Assembly (NCBI GenBank): GCA_021161545.1
Contig: JAGHAJ010000083.1
Coordinates: 1-8,026, forward strand
DNA from: Synergistota bacterium
Lineage (GTDB): Bacteria; Synergistota; JAGHAJ01
Length of the DNA: 8,026 nucleotides
Direction of reading: 5' to 3'
In this document: positions 1,353 to 8,026 of the stretch, in pieces
How positions within the stretch are numbered: position 1 is the stretch's first letter
How the letters are laid out: every line of letters starts with the position of its first letter
Translations under genes and position numbers: made by a program
The notes under the pieces: model-generated
Told to the model about the DNA's origin: nothing
Database searches by the model: none
What the model saw: the letters and a program-made list of their open reading frames with translations, nothing else

Positions 1353-2039
1353 TCACAAAAGCCTTCCTATCCTTCTCACTTTTGGAAATCCAGGGTGAAA
1401 TCTTGAATAGAATACCGCACAGGTAGCAGGCCCTGCACTTTTGCTCAACCACTCTCCCTCCACTTCGGGCACAAAGTTAAGTCCACTATTCTTTGCCAGA
1501 AGTTCCACCTCCTGTAATATACCCCTTGAACCGACAGGTATTACCTCACCAACTCCGTCAGTTTTCAGGAGTTCCATCAACTCATCAAAATCCATGGCAT
1601 CTTGAATCCGCTGAATATACTCCTTTCCAACAAGTGGCATACCCAGAACATAAACCCCACAACCAGGAACAGCTCCACCCACCCTCAAACTCCTAGTAAA
1701 GCCCACAACGCTCACACCCACACCAGTCTGAAGGGTGCGAAAGTTCTTCTCTGTTGAAACAACCAACTTTACATCCTTAAATCTATATAGAAACTCCCTC
1801 ACTCTATCTACCGCATCTCTCACATATTCAGGAGAGTTACAAAACGTTAAGCTTACACTCAAAGGATCTGCTCCCAAGGAGATATTTTCCATAATAGCCA
1901 CCTTGAGTGTCTCAAGCGAGACAAGCTCTATATCTACACTCAAAACATCAAGCTGCAGACCACCTATACCTCCAGCAGAATCACACGTATGAACGATGTA
2001 GCCATCACCAAACTTAAGAATAGCAGCATCTCTAATCAC
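1353..2039 (-). CDS. cblS: Alpha-ribazole kinase-like protein (CblS; AIR-synthase-related fold)
   Basis: A 228-residue member of the PurM/ThiL (AIR synthase-related) ATP-binding fold, and the last gene of the cobamide operon. The N-terminal part has RDAAIL (3-8), then CDSAGGIGG and AIMENISLGADP, matching the fold's pattern of acidic metal sites followed by a helix ending in GAxP. STEKNF, QTGVGVSVVG and a C-terminal GPATCAVF follow. The DSxGxIG signature and the operon context point to CblS, which phosphorylates alpha-ribazole to alpha-ribazole phosphate, an alternative to CobT for making the lower nucleotide. It is shorter than ThiL or PurM (about 320-345 residues), and the DD of ThiL is replaced by RD, arguing against thiamine-phosphate kinase. 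The GTG at 2039 is chosen because AGGAAGG lies 7 bases upstream; a GTG at 2045 is the alternative. It overlaps the cobD end by 8 bases. The fold is secure; the exact substrate rests on motif memory and context. Confidence 0.7.
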   Translation of the reverse strand: MIRDAAILKFGDGYIVHTCDSAGGIGGLQLDVLSVDIELVSLETLKVAIMENISLGADPLSVSLTFCNSPEYVRDAVDRVREFLYRFKDVKLVVSTEKNFRTLQTGVGVSVVGFTRSLRVGGAVPGCGVYVLGMPLVGKEYIQRIQDAMDFDELMELLKTDGVGEVIPVGSRGILQEVELLAKNSGLNFVPEVEGEWLSKSAGPATCAVFYSRFHPGFPKVRRIGRLL

Positions 2040-3024
2040 GTTCACCCCTTCCTAAACGTGGTATCCCAGCCCTTTCAAAAGCAACAAACAGCTTATCATT
2101 CTCCTCCTTCTTTCTGATGGAAACCCTTATCATATCAGGCAATCCAAAAGAGCTACAATCCCTTACATGCACACCAAGGCCATCGAGCACCCTTTGAACC
2201 TTAGAAGCCTCCCCAACTTTAATAACACCGAAATTAGCATCTGTCTGCAATCCAAAGTCCAAAAACCTCTCTCTTTCCCTCCATATCAAGGGCAAACTCC
2301 ATTCAAGAAACTTTCCATTATCCTCAAAGAGATATTTCAAAAACAGAAAACCAGACACACCTATGCCCCACGGTGCTCTATATCTCCTGAATAACTCACA
2401 ATACTTATCAGACTTGACATAGCCCACTCTTATACCGGGCATACCGTAAGATTTGGTAAAGCTTCTTATCCTTATAGTCTTTGAAGTACCTATATCCTCG
2501 TAATCCTTAACAAAGTCCATAAAGGCCTCATCTATTATAACAACAGCTCCAACCTCCTCAAGCCTACTAATCCATTCACGAAATCCCGTCTGAATGACTT
2601 TACCAGTAGGGTTATTAGGATTAGAAAATATAACAACCACTTTTTTCCCATTTCTTACCAGCTTTTCTGCTGTTAAAAAAGCATTCTCAAGCCCATCTAA
2701 CGACCACACCATGTGGACACCAGCAGAGCAAAACGATGCTACTCTTCTAAATTCCCCATAAGAAGGCATTGGTATTACTACATCTGCACCCTTCATAAGA
2801 GTAAAGCCCACTATCTGAAATGCCTCGGTCGCACCCGCCACTATTACAGTATCCTCTCCAAAACGTGCCCTAAACTCACTCTCTATCCATTCAACGTGAT
2901 TGTACCTTACAGCCCTCTTTGCACATTCACCAAACAGATTATATCTCCACTCAGGCACATACGGATTGACAGAAATAGAAAAATCTATGACATCATCCCT
3001 ACCTACACCACCATGAACTTCCAC
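2032..3024 (-). CDS. cobD: L-threonine-O-3-phosphate decarboxylase (CobD-type, PLP-dependent)
   Basis: A fold-type I PLP enzyme of 330 residues that would make (R)-1-amino-2-propanol phosphate, the linker of the cobamide nucleotide loop. It begins with the CobD hallmark HGG (residues 4-6), then DFSISVNP. SNPNNPTG (134-141), DEAFMDF (165-171), the PLP lysine K191 in SFTKSYGMPGIRVGY, and a C-terminal IRVSIR arginine motif follow. HGG, DFSxxxNP and DEAFxDF separate CobD from its close relative histidinol-phosphate aminotransferase, and the neighbours agree. The frame is open to an ATG at 3069, but that would add 15 residues rich in glycine, encoded by a GGT-rich stretch inside cbiB. The GTG at 3024 places HGG at the expected position, with a GGGGGTGGT ribosome site upstream. 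It overlaps the cbiB end by 22 bases. In Pseudomonas nomenclature this is CobC. Confidence 0.85.
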   Translation of the reverse strand: MEVHGGVGRDDVIDFSISVNPYVPEWRYNLFGECAKRAVRYNHVEWIESEFRARFGEDTVIVAGATEAFQIVGFTLMKGADVVIPMPSYGEFRRVASFCSAGVHMVWSLDGLENAFLTAEKLVRNGKKVVVIFSNPNNPTGKVIQTGFREWISRLEEVGAVVIIDEAFMDFVKDYEDIGTSKTIRIRSFTKSYGMPGIRVGYVKSDKYCELFRRYRAPWGIGVSGFLFLKYLFEDNGKFLEWSLPLIWRERERFLDFGLQTDANFGVIKVGEASKVQRVLDGLGVHVRDCSSFGLPDMIRVSIRKKEENDKLFVAFERAGIPRLGRGERD

Positions 3025-3896
3025 TGCACCACCCCCACCACCACGCAGAAAAATCCAACAATTATGCACACAGAATAGAGATACAATCTAAGCCCCCTCT
3101 CTATGTCAGCAATTGTCGGTTCTCTACCACTAAATCTATACACACCCTCCTTTTCAAACCACACCCCTAATACCCCACTAAAGGCACTCATCGGGTAGGC
3201 CGCATTTATCTTTACATGGGCATGTCTTTTAATGGAAGAAAATGCTCTTGAAGGCGAAAACAAAGAAAAAACCAAGGCCGTCAAACGGGAAGGTATAAAG
3301 TTTAACACATCATCCAGTCTCGCAGAGGATTTTCCAAACCATTCATACTTTTCAGTCCGATAGCCAACCATTGCATCGAGCGTATTAACCACTCTATACC
3401 CAACAGCCCCCGGCAGACCAAAGAGCAAGTAGAAGAAAAGCGGCGCTGTCACGGAATCTGACATATTTTCAGACAAGCTTTCAAGGGCAGCAGAAATAAG
3501 ATGTGGGGTATCAAGGTTCGAAACATTTCTACTAACAAGGCGAGAAACTGCCATGCGAAGTTCCTTCAAGTCTTCCGTAACACACTTAGAGACATGCGTA
3601 TAAAGTGCCCTTATAGAAAAAGTTGATTTCAATAGATATACCTGCAATGCAAAACCCAAGGCTCCATCCATCTGAGACAAGGTTATACTCAGATAAATCC
3701 ACACACTCAAGTCAACCACAAGAAGCAGGAAACCAAGAGAGAATCTCAACAAGCAAGAATCAGAATTGATGTCAAACAGTTTCACAATTCTTCCCATCCA
3801 CACAACAGGATGAAAAAGCACTGGCCATTCACCAAATATCAGGTCTACTCCAACGGCTGATAAAAGCACAAGCAAGTTTACCTTCCACAATATCAA
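3003..3896 (-). CDS. cbiB: Adenosylcobinamide-phosphate synthase CbiB (membrane protein)
   Basis: An integral membrane enzyme that condenses adenosylcobyric acid with aminopropanol phosphate to give adenosylcobinamide phosphate. The 297 residues are close to the usual size. Visible family motifs are DLIFGEWP followed by HPVVWMG near the N-terminus, ALESLSENMSDSVTAPL, YRVVNTLDAMVGYR, SARLDDVLNFIPSRLTA, and NAAYPMSAFSGVLGV with a following ISEN-like acidic segment. Hydrophobic stretches cover the N-terminal end, about residues 50-90, about 155-175 and the C-terminal end. The TTG start at 3896 forms a TTGA overlap with the cobS stop and has GGGGTG about 9 bases upstream; TTG 3926 and GTG 3908 are in-frame alternatives that would lengthen the protein into cobS. 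The product sits between CobD (supplies its amine substrate) and CobU (uses its product). Confidence 0.93.
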   Translation of the reverse strand: MILWKVNLLVLLSAVGVDLIFGEWPVLFHPVVWMGRIVKLFDINSDSCLLRFSLGFLLLVVDLSVWIYLSITLSQMDGALGFALQVYLLKSTFSIRALYTHVSKCVTEDLKELRMAVSRLVSRNVSNLDTPHLISAALESLSENMSDSVTAPLFFYLLFGLPGAVGYRVVNTLDAMVGYRTEKYEWFGKSSARLDDVLNFIPSRLTALVFSLFSPSRAFSSIKRHAHVKINAAYPMSAFSGVLGVWFEKEGVYRFSGREPTIADIERGLRLYLYSVCIIVGFFCVVVGVVQWKFMVV

Positions 3897-4603
3897 TTCA
3901 CGATGCACCCCATTGCATACGCACAAGTGAGAATAAAGAGCTGAACGCTCATGTTTAGTGCACCTAATACATCACCTGTACATCCACCTATTTCCCGCTT
4001 GCTCAATACTGCCATAGCATATGCCAACGCCAAAGAAAAAGAAAAAGAGCAGATATAAAGCCCAAACACTGACAAAAGAGGAATAGTAGAAAGCAGGGCA
4101 TAGATTGTATTCCTTCCATCATAGGGATAAAGTGTTCTTCCAAGTCCCACACCCTTGGCAGGAGTAGAAAACGTCAGCAGAAAACACATAGAAACTCTCC
4201 CAAAAACAGCAGAGTAAAACATCACATACGGCTGAACGCGAAAAAAGGCGTAAAGATATACCATGATGAACAAGACACCAAATAGCAAAGCTGAAGGTCC
4301 TACATTACCCATAGACATTATCTGTAACTTCTTATGTGGCTCTTTCTGGCTGAGAAAACCATCCAGTGTATCAAGAAGCCCATCAAAGTGGAATGCATCA
4401 AATAACCAGAACCCCATCGCAACTACGAAAATCTGTCCTAACCAAGAGGGAAAAAGCAGTTTCATCAAAAAGTAAAATAAACCTACCACATAACCAACAG
4501 CTCCAAAATATGCAGGAATCCTCTTTACATCTCCACTCCCCCTAACGGGTATCCTACTTAAAAAAGCCAGGGAAAAGAGAAATTCATTTATGATGCCATA
4601 CAT
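3893..4603 (-). CDS. cobS: Adenosylcobinamide-GDP ribazoletransferase (cobalamin synthase) CobS
   Basis: A polytopic membrane enzyme of 236 residues that joins adenosylcobinamide-GDP to alpha-ribazole or its phosphate, the last condensation of cobamide synthesis. The N-terminus has FLSRIPV (14-20). The acidic metal/substrate motif HFDGLLDTLDG (72-82) carries D74, D78 and D81, followed by MGNVGPSALL. GCTGDVLGA (about 207-215) is the second conserved Asp/Gly motif. Most of the remainder is hydrophobic membrane segments. The ATG at 4603 lies within the end of cbiR (20-base overlap), with GAGG 9 bases upstream, and places LSRIPV at the usual distance from the start. The gene lies between cbiR, which generates cobinamide phosphate, and cbiB. 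Its partner nucleotide would come from the CblS-like kinase at the operon end if CobT is absent. Confidence 0.93.
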   Translation of the reverse strand: MYGIINEFLFSLAFLSRIPVRGSGDVKRIPAYFGAVGYVVGLFYFLMKLLFPSWLGQIFVVAMGFWLFDAFHFDGLLDTLDGFLSQKEPHKKLQIMSMGNVGPSALLFGVLFIMVYLYAFFRVQPYVMFYSAVFGRVSMCFLLTFSTPAKGVGLGRTLYPYDGRNTIYALLSTIPLLSVFGLYICSFSFSLALAYAMAVLSKREIGGCTGDVLGALNMSVQLFILTCAYAMGCIVN

Positions 4604-5177
4604 CCTGCCATACCTCTATAGAATACAAAAGGTCATCGAGGTCAAAGACCTCAAAGTTAACAAGCACATCATCTCTCACAAAATCCATCGCAACAGAAGC
4701 CGCATCTTCATCAAGTCTCACATGGTCTTTCCCTTCCCTTACACCCATGAGATGAACTTCCACTATGTTCTCTACAAGATTTGCTGGGAACTTCATTCCG
4801 AGAATGTGATGTCCAACATCGAAAACCATCCTATCATAAGCATCTATTCTATATTTAAGATTCTCAATTGAAACTTTACTACCCCAGCTGATAGACTTCC
4901 AGCCATCCATAGGGTGAAGGACATAATTCAAGACAGGAAAACTAATCCCTTCGAAGAAGTCAAGTGCCCTTTTCGCATCAAAAATGCTATTCGTAGGGAG
5001 GTGCACAGTATAAGCAAGATCAAGCTCAAGGAGCTTATCGCTCTCTTTATATATAAGCTTTCTCACATCTTCACTCCAATCATAAACAAGCAGTTCCACA
5101 AAATCCACAATTCCATGCAGGAGCTTTGCATTATCCAGATATGTTCCAGGTATCACCCAAGAAGTAGAGCCAATCAT
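4584..5177 (-). CDS. cbiR: Cobamide-remodelling phosphodiesterase CbiR-like protein (xylose-isomerase-type TIM barrel)
   Basis: A 197-residue protein of the AP-endonuclease-2 / sugar-phosphate isomerase TIM-barrel superfamily. It begins IGSTSWVIPGTYLDNAK and then FVELLVYD (E29), a pattern I associate with CbiR. Putative metal and active-site residues on successive strands are E29, H59 (TVHLPT), H88 (VLHPMDG), D120 and H123 (DVGHH), H142 (EVHLMG), H152 (KDHVRL) and E176 (NFEVF). CbiR, first characterised in Akkermansia muciniphila, hydrolyses the nucleotide-loop linkage of cobamides to give cobinamide phosphate, so the cell can replace the lower ligand. The ATG at 5177 shares an ATGA overlap with the cobU stop and has GAGG 5 bases upstream. 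Its position inside a cobU-cobS operon is the strongest context evidence. It is smaller than typical xylose-isomerase-like proteins of about 270 residues. Without an alignment, another cobamide-related hydrolysis remains possible. Confidence 0.75.
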   Translation of the reverse strand: MIGSTSWVIPGTYLDNAKLLHGIVDFVELLVYDWSEDVRKLIYKESDKLLELDLAYTVHLPTNSIFDAKRALDFFEGISFPVLNYVLHPMDGWKSISWGSKVSIENLKYRIDAYDRMVFDVGHHILGMKFPANLVENIVEVHLMGVREGKDHVRLDEDAASVAMDFVRDDVLVNFEVFDLDDLLYSIEVWQDVWHHK

Positions 5178-5662
5178 TTTATCCTCATCGGTATACCGGA
5201 AACTATAAAATAAGCCTCATCTGCAACCTCAGCAAGTTTTATATTCAGCCTTCCCAACTCTTCTACATATTGCCTCGTATCTGCATCAGCAGGTACAACT
5301 CCCATGCCCACCTCATTTGTAACGATTATCTCATTACCATTAAGAGAAGATAAAAAATCAGCAATAGCCTGCCTTACATCTATTTTCCTATACATAATAT
5401 TAGCTAACCATGTAGTCACACACTCAAATACACATACATCATAGGAAGCTGTTTCCCTCAAAATAGCAGTAACATTAACAGGTTCCTCAAATGTGTCAAA
5501 CAGTCCCGCTCTTTCCCTTTTGTGCACCTCTATTCTATTTTGCATCTCCTCATCTATTGGTTCTGCAGTTGCTATAAACGCCCTACTTTTACCCAGTCTC
5601 AGGGCCAGTTGCAAAGCGAAAGAGCTCTTACCTGAACGCTCACCTCCAGTTATAAGCACCAT
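5174..5662 (-). CDS. cobU: Bifunctional adenosylcobinamide kinase / adenosylcobinamide-phosphate guanylyltransferase CobU
   Basis: First gene of the operon. The enzyme phosphorylates adenosylcobinamide and transfers GMP to the phosphate, giving adenosylcobinamide-GDP for CobS. The 162 residues carry a P-loop GGERSGKS (6-13), ATAEP (31-35), and IEVHKRERAGLFDTFEEP with the guanylyl-accepting histidine H47. ECVTTWLANIM (80-90), TNEVGMGVVP (115-124) and a terminal GIPMRIK complete the CobU pattern, and no motif is missing. It is slightly shorter than Salmonella CobU (about 180 residues). The ATG at 5662 has GGGGTGG ending 4 bases upstream, and a sigma-70-like promoter lies about 30 bases further up. 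The leader is too short for a cobalamin riboswitch. Since CbiR and CbiB both yield the phosphate form, the guanylyltransferase activity is probably the essential one here; the kinase would serve cobinamide salvage. Confidence 0.95.
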   Translation of the reverse strand: MVLITGGERSGKSSFALQLALRLGKSRAFIATAEPIDEEMQNRIEVHKRERAGLFDTFEEPVNVTAILRETASYDVCVFECVTTWLANIMYRKIDVRQAIADFLSSLNGNEIIVTNEVGMGVVPADADTRQYVEELGRLNIKLAEVADEAYFIVSGIPMRIK

Positions 5663-5731: not shown

Positions 5732-5760
5732 TTGACATATGCCTCTTGCAGGACTATAAT
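5732..5760 (+). promoter_or_regulatory. Consensus sigma-70 promoter of the isc-like operon
   Basis: TTGACA (5732-5737) and TATAAT (5755-5760) are both perfect consensus hexamers with the ideal 17-base spacer. Transcription should start around 5766-5768. A promoter this strong normally needs repression, and an inverted repeat begins in the -10 element and covers the predicted start. Confidence 0.85.
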
Positions 5761-5799: not shown

Positions 5800-6984
5800 T
5801 TGATAGGAGACAAGGTATACTTAGACCATTACAGGACAACACCTGTTCATGAAGAAGTATATCAAAGAATGCAACCGTATTTCAAGGAGAAATTCTGGTT
5901 GCCTGCACCATTTGTATCTACAGGAACAGAGATAGGAGAGATGATAGAGGAGGCAAAGGGAGAAATATTAAAGTCTTTCAACCTGAAAAGAGGAGAAATA
6001 TTATTTACCCCTGGTGGAACATATGCCAACAACATGGTTATACATGGAGTATTAAGAGATGCTGAACCCGAGTCAACAAGAATAATAACATCAGAAGTGT
6101 GCCATATATCTATCTTGAACACATATATGTATTATAAGAAGAAAGGCATAGACGTGGTATTCTTAAAAGTGGATAATGAAGGCTATATAGACATAGAGGA
6201 GTTAAAAAGTCAGCTTACCCCACATACAAAGCTTGTTTCGATAACACATGTAAATCACACGATTGGAACGATACAGCCTGTAGAAGAAATCATCAAGACA
6301 GTAAAGGAGTACAACGAGAATATAGCTATACTGTTAGATAGTGCTACCGCCATAAATTCTATACCTATAGACCTCTCAAGGCTCAACGTCGATTTTCTGA
6401 CTGCAAGTGGCCATAAGATATACGGACCAAAGGGCATAGGCATCATAGTAGCAAGAGACACAAAGAAGTTGAAACCGATTATTTTTGGAAACGTAGATAC
6501 ATCTCCGTATACACCAGGAGCTGACAATATCCCCGGTATAGTTGGGATAAAAGAGGCAATCAAACTTGCCACAGTGAGGAGAGAAGAATATGTGAAACAT
6601 ACGTCAGAGCTACAGAAGTACCTGGCAGAAAGAATGGAAAAGGAGATACCAGACATTGTCCTTAACGGCCCACCAGTGGGAGAGCGAGCAGTGGACAATA
6701 TAAACTACTCCATAAGGTACGTAGAAGGCGAATCAGTAACACTGTTCTTAGACTTCGAAAATATTGTAGTAGCAACAGGTTCTGCGTGTGCATCCAGCAA
6801 TCTAAAGGTAAACTATGTCCTGAGTGCCATCGGAAGAGAACATGAACTCGCACATGGTTCTCTAAGGATTACATTGGGATGGGACAACAGCAAAGACGAA
6901 ATAGATACATTTGTGGAAACTCTAAAACCCATAGTAGAAAGACTGAGGAGTCAAAGCACCCTCACAAGAACACAGGAGGTGTAA
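5800..6984 (+). CDS. Divergent IscS/NifS-type cysteine desulfurase
   Basis: A class V aminotransferase-fold PLP enzyme of 394 residues that should mobilise sulfur from cysteine as a persulfide for iron-sulfur cluster assembly. The PLP lysine is K206 in SGHKIYGPKGIG, the acid/base histidine is H102 (CHISILNT), D180 would contact the pyridine nitrogen, and the sulfur-carrying cysteine is C330 in GSACASSNLKVNYVL. The arginine in GSLRITLG should bind the substrate carboxylate. Several normally conserved positions differ. YLDNAATTP is YLDHYRTTP, the GNPSS region is FWLPAPFVS, NNE(T/I)G is NHTIG, and the Gln that usually follows the PLP-binding Asp is T183. The start is TTG at 5800, with AGAGGTGG 6 bases upstream; it puts YLDH at the usual distance from the N-terminus. 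The IscU-like gene follows 4 bases after the stop. Desulfurase activity is likely, but the altered pocket makes substrate or partner differences possible. Confidence 0.88.
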   Translation: MIGDKVYLDHYRTTPVHEEVYQRMQPYFKEKFWLPAPFVSTGTEIGEMIEEAKGEILKSFNLKRGEILFTPGGTYANNMVIHGVLRDAEPESTRIITSEVCHISILNTYMYYKKKGIDVVFLKVDNEGYIDIEELKSQLTPHTKLVSITHVNHTIGTIQPVEEIIKTVKEYNENIAILLDSATAINSIPIDLSRLNVDFLTASGHKIYGPKGIGIIVARDTKKLKPIIFGNVDTSPYTPGADNIPGIVGIKEAIKLATVRREEYVKHTSELQKYLAERMEKEIPDIVLNGPPVGERAVDNINYSIRYVEGESVTLFLDFENIVVATGSACASSNLKVNYVLSAIGREHELAHGSLRITLGWDNSKDEIDTFVETLKPIVERLRSQSTLTRTQEV

Positions 6985-6988
6985 GAAA

Positions 6989-7624
6989 ATGGCTATAGTG
7001 AAGTATACGGAAAAAGTAATAGAACACTTTAAAAACCCAAGGAATGTTGGAGAAATAGAAAATCCAGATGGAGCTGCCACAGTAGGTAGTCCCGCATGCG
7101 GAGACCAGGTGTCAGTATTTCTGAAGGTAAATAATGACAGGATCGAAGATATAAAATTTCTATCGTATGGATGTGCATCCAACATAGCAACAGGTTCAAT
7201 AGTAACCGAGATGGCAAAGGGAAAGAGTATAGAGGAAGCAAAAAAGCTCACATGGAAGCAAGCAATGGAAGAACTTGGTGGGCTCCCTCCCATAAAGTTC
7301 CACTGCTCAGTTCTCGCAGTAGATGGTCTCAGGGCTGCAATCAAAGACTACGAAGAAAGAAAACTCGGTAAGAAATATGAGGAAAGCGTAAACGAAGAGT
7401 ACATACTTGAAAAACTAAAAGAGATTATATACCCTAAAACTGGAAACAACATAGTAGATGCCCAATTAATAAGATACATGAAATTCGAAGATGGAAAGCT
7501 AACAATCGAGATGTCATTTGAGGAAACAGATGAATTCAAGCAAAACGTGCTGGAAGAGATCAAAGAGCACATTTCAGAAATAAAGGAAGTAAAAGAAATA
7601 GACATAAAGGTGATGGAATACTAA
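6989..7624 (+). CDS. IscU/NifU-type Fe-S scaffold fused to a C-terminal MIP18 (DUF59)-like domain
   Basis: Residues 1-125 are an IscU scaffold: YTEKVIEHFKNPRNVGE, then the three cluster-ligand cysteines C37 (PACGD, with D39), C62 (YGCASNIATGS) and C106 (KFHCSVLAVDGL, preceded by H105). It would receive sulfur from the desulfurase encoded just upstream and assemble a [2Fe-2S] cluster. After a charged linker (about 121-137), residues about 138-211 resemble the MIP18/DUF59 fold: an LEKLKEII helix, NIVDAQLI, EDGKLTIEM, and a final VKEIDIKV strand. In stand-alone MIP18/SufT proteins the first turn usually carries DPE and the second loop a Thr...Cys-Pro element. Here these read YPK and EETDE, so the domain lacks its cysteine. 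A plain IscU has about 130-150 residues; this one has 211. The ATG at 6989 has AGGAGGTG 7 bases upstream, overlapping the end of the desulfurase gene. Confidence 0.9.
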   Translation: MAIVKYTEKVIEHFKNPRNVGEIENPDGAATVGSPACGDQVSVFLKVNNDRIEDIKFLSYGCASNIATGSIVTEMAKGKSIEEAKKLTWKQAMEELGGLPPIKFHCSVLAVDGLRAAIKDYEERKLGKKYEESVNEEYILEKLKEIIYPKTGNNIVDAQLIRYMKFEDGKLTIEMSFEETDEFKQNVLEEIKEHISEIKEVKEIDIKVMEY

Positions 7625-7626
7625 CC

Positions 7627-8026
7627 ATGTTCTTCTTAAGAACAACGAAATATGCAATAAGGTCTCTGGTATATATAACAGTGAAGGGAAAGACCACATC
7701 TCTACAAGAATTATCAAGGGAACTTGAGATTCCATTCGACTACCTTAAGAAAGTATTAATAAAACTGCAAAAAGCCGGGATACTACGTAGTATAAAAGGA
7801 AAGGCTGGGGGGTATTACCTTGCTAAACCCCCAGCCTCCATCACTATTGCAGAAGTGATAAAAATATTCGAAAGTGTGGGATTTGAGGAATGTAACTTTT
7901 CATATTGTGAAGAAAAGTGCATGGCATATAAGGGCATGATGCTATTAGAGAAAAGGCTTATGGAAGTACTCAATAGCATCACCTTAGCCGACTTTCAGAA
8001 AAGGAGGGAGAAATTAAATGAGGGTA
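7627..8026 (+). CDS. Rrf2-family (IscR-like) transcriptional regulator, 3' end not in window
   Basis: The frame is open from ATG 7627, 2 bases after the scaffold stop, to the window edge (133 codons visible). The N-terminus FLRTTKYAIRSLVYIT is the typical first helix of Rrf2 proteins. SLQELSRELEIPFDYLKKVL (25-44) with LQKAGILRSIKGKAGGYYLA (47-66) forms the winged helix-turn-helix. Three cysteines, C89, C94 and C98 (C-x4-C-x3-C), sit in the usual cluster-binding loop, so it probably holds an Fe-S cluster and senses cluster status. The spacing is tighter than in E. coli IscR (C-x5-C-x5-C plus His). The ribosome site is weak, suggesting translational coupling to the scaffold gene. It is the third gene of its operon rather than the first as in iscRSUA. 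The inverted repeat at the operon promoter is its likely target. Confidence 0.9.
   Translation, partial: MFFLRTTKYAIRSLVYITVKGKTTSLQELSRELEIPFDYLKKVLIKLQKAGILRSIKGKAGGYYLAKPPASITIAEVIKIFESVGFEECNFSYCEEKCMAYKGMMLLEKRLMEVLNSITLADFQKRREKLNEG
8018..8026 (+). CDS. Start of a further gene overlapping the Rrf2 gene
   Basis: A strong ribosome site AAGGAGGGAG (8001-8010) is followed by ATG AGG GTA at 8018-8026, in a different frame from the regulator, which has not yet ended. This looks like the start of a fourth, translationally coupled gene of the isc operon. Only three codons (Met-Arg-Val) are visible, so no product can be assigned. Confidence 0.5.

Follow-up and report, generated by a model that had tools for sequence, protein, structure and literature searches.

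What does a MIP18-fold domain contribute when it is carried by an iron-sulfur (Fe-S) scaffold protein and lacks the reactive cysteine of its free relatives? DUF59/MIP18 proteins are widespread in all domains of life, and the function of the domain is still debated. A conserved, naturally cysteine-free copy on a scaffold uncouples the fold from the reactive cysteine, and with it the contribution of the fold itself can be tested cleanly. Such a copy is encoded in the window, which is the whole 8,026-nucleotide stretch analysed here and a contig of a draft genome that is 82% complete. The features relevant to the question are as follows.

5732..5760 (+): sigma-70-like promoter match, 12 of 12, lying 40 bases upstream of the NifS-like gene; a consensus match only
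5800..6984 (+): NifS-like class I cysteine desulfurase homologue, the partner of the fusion (TIGR03402, active-site alignment)
6989..7624 (+): IscU-MIP18 fusion protein of 211 aa, a MisU/IscU-type scaffold with a cysteine-free MIP18-fold domain
7001..7363 (+): NifU_N / IscU domain, residues 5-125 (PF01592, invariant columns, PDB homologues)
7397..7603 (+): MIP18/DUF59-fold domain, residues 137-205, without the DPE and TxxC motifs (PF01883, hhalign, Foldseek)
7627..8025 (+): Rrf2-family regulator, running off the contig end (PF02082, E 5.4e-27)

A scaffold and a MIP18-fold domain in one chain

A preliminary description of this DNA proposed that an IscU scaffold is fused to a MIP18/DUF59-like domain, and this proved correct: a single uninterrupted frame of 211 aa matches both NifU_N and PF01883 above their cut-offs. 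The N-terminal match (Pfam PF01592, residues 5-125) has an E-value of 1.7e-43 and 148.3 bits against a cut-off of 22. C37, D39, C62, H105 and C106 are all present in the window protein and invariant across 66 aligned fusions, in agreement with the earlier view that the IscU part, judged by C37, D39, C62 and C106, is intact. The motif LPPIK occupies residues 99-103. The window fusion missed both NCBIfam equivalog cut-offs (171.5 bits against 187.9 for iscU, and 130.9 against 192.4 for NifU_clost), and its IscU domain is thus a diverged member rather than the equivalog.

An AlphaFold2 model of the whole fusion gave a pLDDT of 91.4 and a pTM of 0.61, from which it follows that each domain is predicted with confidence while the relative orientation of the two is uncertain. 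The best structural match of this model in Foldseek was the scaffold of the Archaeoglobus fulgidus IscS-IscU complex (PDB 4eb5, 4eb7). Since its top 50 matches were IscU-type only, the C-terminal domain was modelled alone.

The C-terminal stretch on its own matched PF01883 (FeS_assembly_P) over profile positions 2-72 of 73, with an E-value of 1.2e-6 and a score of 29.1 bits, above the gathering cut-off of 23.5. Profile-profile comparison with hhalign, in which the C-termini of 71 fusions were set against 16 stand-alone DUF59 domains, yielded a score of 88 (E 8.8e-17), compared with at most 19 for 30 column-shuffled control profiles. The AlphaFold2 model of the isolated domain reached a pLDDT of 93.9, and its ten best Foldseek matches in the PDB were all DUF59-family proteins, with TM scores up to 0.83. 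Matches of the isolated domain include 3lno, 3cq1/3cq2/2cu6, TM0487 (1uwd) and Mycobacterium tuberculosis (Mtb) SufT (5ird). The Thermus entries among them are titled otherwise, and we take them to be DUF59 proteins. A chance resemblance to MIP18 is ruled out by the shuffled-column controls together with the fold.

The C-terminal domain had also been described as cysteine-free. This is true of the window protein and extends well beyond it. Each of 16 stand-alone domains has C in the SufT cysteine column, whereas all 71 aligned fusions leave it empty, and the fusion members displayed in the alignment have other residues in place of the DPE motif. The SufT motif is DPE-X26-31-T-X2/3-C (PMC9045647); with that motif and its reactive cysteine missing, the domain is one of MIP18 fold but not a SufT. 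In a scan of 74 sequences, 72 had no cysteine at all in the domain; one of the 72, L107, ends before it. The two exceptions are L008, with five cysteines in an insert, and L057, with two that lie off-site. In L008, a Thermoplasmatota fusion (3927-4658), the insert interrupts the MIP18 domain, and the 7.7-kb locus yielded no NifS-like gene.

Estimates of dN/dS for the domain in close pairs are about 0.05-0.09, indicative of purifying selection, with synonymous sites saturated for the window and its near sister. G152 is the sole invariant residue, and L143, F183, E190 and E193 are nearly so.

Distribution and single origin

The fusion is widespread. It was found in 108 of 124 Cloacimonadota genomes, in 26 of 54 genomes of the Caldisericota-type phylum of G067 (G067 itself, where the fusion is apparently split between two contigs, is additional to these), in 24 of 147 genomes of the WOR-3-type phylum of G064 (one of the 24 being cut by a contig end), in 8 of 400 Chloroflexota and in 8 of 243 Thermoplasmatota, these counts being dependent on E-value cut-offs and on incomplete genomes. 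A near sister of the window fusion, 80% identical to it, occurs in a Thermotogae metagenome-assembled genome (L003). Searches of 60 other genomes of the window's phylum gave no full-length match.

In a tree of the IscU domain, built from few columns and with many forks unresolved, 58 fusions fall on one side of a branch (SH-aLRT 100) and 60 single-domain proteins on the other. The fusions are thus one clade, a single lineage with a patchy spread across phyla rather than something peculiar to the window's genome. Other phyla may also carry the fusion, as the genomes sampled are a part of the prokaryotes. An artefact of assembly, frameshift or sequencing is ruled out, since dozens of genomes, independent of one another, carry the identical joined frame and purifying selection acts on the C-terminal domain.

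The closest published counterpart is an architecture termed “S5”, listed with n = 5 by Mashruwala et al. in 2016, whose N-terminal domain is homologous to U-type Fe-S scaffolds (PMC4982691). By its description, S5 resembles the fusion in placing a DUF59/SufT domain behind a U-type scaffold domain. However, the authors state that a conserved cysteine is present in every SufT homologue, whereas all of the fusions aligned here lack it. S5 was listed without operon, partner or functional data (PMC4982691). The architecture is not exceptional: it is common across several phyla and was on record in 2016, though a functional study of such a fusion was not found in the open-licence literature. The architecture class is known from the 2016 listing; the clade-wide loss of cysteine and the altered partner are described here.

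The NifS-like partner and gene neighbourhoods

A NifS-like gene directly adjoins the fusion in nearly all loci. The window's copy matches TIGR03402 with an E-value of 1.2e-99, yet falls below the family cut-off. Escherichia coli IscS requires His104, Asp180, Gln183, Lys206 and Cys328, and each single change tested inactivated the enzyme (PMC9978102). By E. coli numbering, the window partner keeps His104, Asp180, Lys206 and the cysteine of its GSAC motif and has Thr in place of Gln183, so that its active-site set reads H, D, T, K, C rather than the full class I set of H, D, Q, K, C. The preliminary description had passed over this alteration of the partner's PLP pocket.

The same drift is seen across the family. 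Only 2 of 71 fusion-linked partners retain Gln183 (it is replaced in 69/71), 32/71 retain His104 and 49/71 retain Lys206; the other 22/71 have T, L, V or R in place of the lysine, mostly within one clade plus a few scattered cases. The persulfide cysteine, by contrast, is kept in 71/71. In a comparison set of 60 NifS proteins encoded beside ordinary IscU, Gln183 is present in 53/60, Lys206 in 52/60, the cysteine in 60/60 and His104 in all 58 that could be scored. The E. coli mutant data are not directly transferable to the fusion-linked partners. Of 39 Cloacimonadota genomes, 22 yielded a single class I NifS/IscS match, and for this reason the Lys-retaining partners of that phylum are probably active despite their changes at Gln183. 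The NifS-like protein and the fusion may in fact be the only ISC-type machinery in many Cloacimonadota.

An IscS without the lysine is not in itself new, given the precedents of A. fulgidus IscS and Methanosarcina acetivorans IscS1 (PMC7585200). The IscS of A. fulgidus has no PLP lysine; what it provides to the IscU-bound cluster is a cysteine ligand instead of sulfur (PMC7585200), and in this respect it resembles the Lys-less partners. It differs from the window partner, which still has its lysine, and A. fulgidus IscU is a chain of 153 aa that, unlike the fusion, has no C-terminal MIP18 domain. Eight Lys-less NifS-like proteins were also noted beside ordinary single-domain IscU, seven in Chloroflexota (L066, L068, L072, L075, L077, L079 and L083) and one in Aenigmatarchaeota (L010). 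These carry Gln, Ala or Leu in place of the PLP lysine, and seven of them also have Ala for Gln183. With residues of the PLP site repeatedly lost in the partner and the persulfide cysteine always kept, it can be asked whether ISC-type assembly in anaerobes runs without cysteine desulfuration.

By gene pattern, the window also resembles the minimal two-gene system referred to as MIS, in which an IscS-like protein (MisS) and an IscU-like protein (MisU) are encoded by adjacent genes (Garcia et al. 2022, as described in PMC12442378 and PMC10653786). In these reports MisU is presented as homologous to IscU, and a second domain is not mentioned, whereas the window scaffold has a MIP18-fold domain and its partner an altered PLP pocket.

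Three neighbourhood patterns are observed. In the first, found in Cloacimonadota and some WOR-3-type genomes, Rrf2, NifS-like and fusion genes lie together; the window holds these three genes, with Rrf2 downstream. The window's Rrf2 regulator has three clustered cysteines (CNFSYCEEKC) that are possible Fe-S ligands, and the match at 5732..5760 is a possible operon promoter. In the second pattern, a stand-alone, cysteine-containing SufT gene directly precedes the NifS-like and fusion genes, as in 9 of 13 Caldisericota-type loci and the WOR-3-type locus L197. In the third, TusA or DsrE2 genes lie beside the pair in Chloroflexota, Thermoplasmatota and some WOR-3-type genomes.

A second module, consisting of an ordinary IscS and an IscU-like protein without the first cysteine, occurs in the same stretch as the fusion module in six Caldisericota-type loci and in the sister L003. 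An equivalent pair is present in the window genome on contig C30. Representative positions are 1519-3032 in L002 (contig C30), 1773-3292 in L003 and 2330-3875 in L182. The IscU-like protein also lacks the His that precedes the third cysteine. In this second module an ordinary IscS is paired with the altered IscU-like protein, whereas the intact IscU of the fusion is paired with an altered NifS-like protein. In L003, a HEPN and nucleotidyltransferase gene pair resembling HEPN/MNT toxin-antitoxin systems (1045-1750) lies between Rrf2 and the second IscS.

With respect to other Fe-S proteins, SUFBD proteins were not found in the window genome, which at 82% completeness may reflect missing sequence; the sister genome has a SUFBD match. 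Elsewhere in the window, a minus-strand cluster for cobamide synthesis and salvage (2032-5662) encodes a CobD-like aminotransferase, CbiB, CobS, CbiR and a CobU-like protein. A 230-aa protein in the cluster (1353-2045, minus strand) had no Pfam or NCBIfam match at E-values up to 1, and CbiR, which denotes remodelling, matched above its cut-off.

Possible roles of the cysteine-free domain

The reading preferred here, held with about even confidence, is that the scaffold is of MIS/ISC type and bears, as a fixed part of its chain, a SufT-like contact domain that holds no metal. The gene product would be the U-type scaffold of a minimal, MIS-like ISC system. Its NifS-like partner would place sulfur on the IscU domain, or supply a cysteine ligand, and the cluster would be assembled on C37/D39/C62/H105/C106. 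The fused domain, having kept the MIP18/SufT fold and lost the cysteine pocket, would be a protein-contact module that binds no metal: a built-in SufT-like adaptor, which may also dimerise the scaffold. It may contact clients or a second scaffold copy and thereby aid delivery; in that event cluster assembly and delivery could be directly coupled, as the preliminary description suggested.

Known SufT/MIP18 proteins bear on this proposal. TM0487 (1uwd), 3lno and Mtb SufT (5ird), all of PF01883 type, match residues 137-205 in fold and profile, but are free proteins with the DPE-X26-31-T-X2/3-C motif, whereas the fusion domain is motif-less and part of a scaffold chain. Mtb SufT binds neither Fe nor a cluster, and without its cysteine it can neither homodimerise nor contact SufU, SufS, aconitase or SufR (PMC9045647). 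The fused adaptor would replace this cysteine-dependent contact of free SufT with U-type proteins and clients. With the domain already joined to the scaffold, such contact would be unneeded, which would explain the clade-wide loss of the cysteine pocket. The earlier suggestion that the second domain docks clients or stabilises the scaffold rather than binding metal is consistent with the loss of both halves of the SufT motif and with the metal-free state of Mtb SufT; the choice between docking and stabilising is weighed below. A difficulty for the adaptor reading is that the C62A change in Mtb SufT abolished homodimerisation and partner binding (PMC9045647), so that a cysteine-free domain might be expected neither to dimerise nor to dock.

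For most of the 59 Cloacimonadota sampled, no PF01883 match other than the fusion turned up; only about 5 have a separate short one. The window genome keeps a stand-alone, cysteine-containing SufT (L148), and in that genome the fused domain is therefore not a simple replacement for SufT.

A broader proposal is more tentative, and on balance doubtful. The fusions and their partners could form a distinct ISC-type system across phyla, in which the scaffold carries its own cysteine-free adaptor and the “desulfurase” is turning, in one branch completely, into a protein that works without PLP and either carries persulfide or donates a cluster ligand, with DsrE2/TusA rather than cysteine as its source.

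Pure dimerisation is a serious rival to the adaptor reading, if an unlikely one. The domain would then only dimerise or stabilise the scaffold, pairing two IscU sites (e.g., for coupling 2Fe-2S to 4Fe-4S clusters), with no docking of clients. Homodimerisation is known from DUF59 proteins, for instance Mtb SufT (PMC9045647), cluster-carrying IscU dimerises (PMC7585200), and a short, cysteine-free domain with G152 alone invariant would suit such a role; on the other hand, the Mtb SufT dimer needs the very cysteine that is missing from the fusions (PMC9045647).

It is less probable that the domain is half of a heterodimer that docks a cysteine-containing SufT of the same cell, with the latter carrying the cluster or contacting clients. 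The second gene pattern speaks for this arrangement, and the window genome and its sister each hold such a SufT. Yet no stand-alone PF01883 protein was found in most of the 59 Cloacimonadota or in G903, G482 and G063, which makes SufT docking alone unlikely as a general role, although incomplete genomes soften the point.

Still less weight is given to the pair being mainly a sulfur-trafficking device, wherein a pseudo-desulfurase, persulfide-loaded by DsrE2/TusA, hands its sulfur on to the fusion. At 12 of 71 loci there is an adjoining TusA gene, and DsrE2-like genes adjoin only Lys206-less partners (12/22, versus 0/49 of the Lys-retaining ones). As independent evidence, however, the DsrE2 link is weak, since it comes essentially from one clade and finds no support among independent pairs. 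Furthermore, the IscU cluster ligands are all retained, and the window partner keeps Lys206, with no DsrE2 or TusA gene seen in the window. A sulfur relay is possible for the Lys-less branch and is not indicated for the window.

Finally, that the C-terminal domain is a degenerate, functionless relic is very improbable, for although the family motif is gone and distant members are only ~20-37% identical to the window's domain, the low dN/dS of close pairs and the retention of the domain by all clade members in several phyla argue against it.
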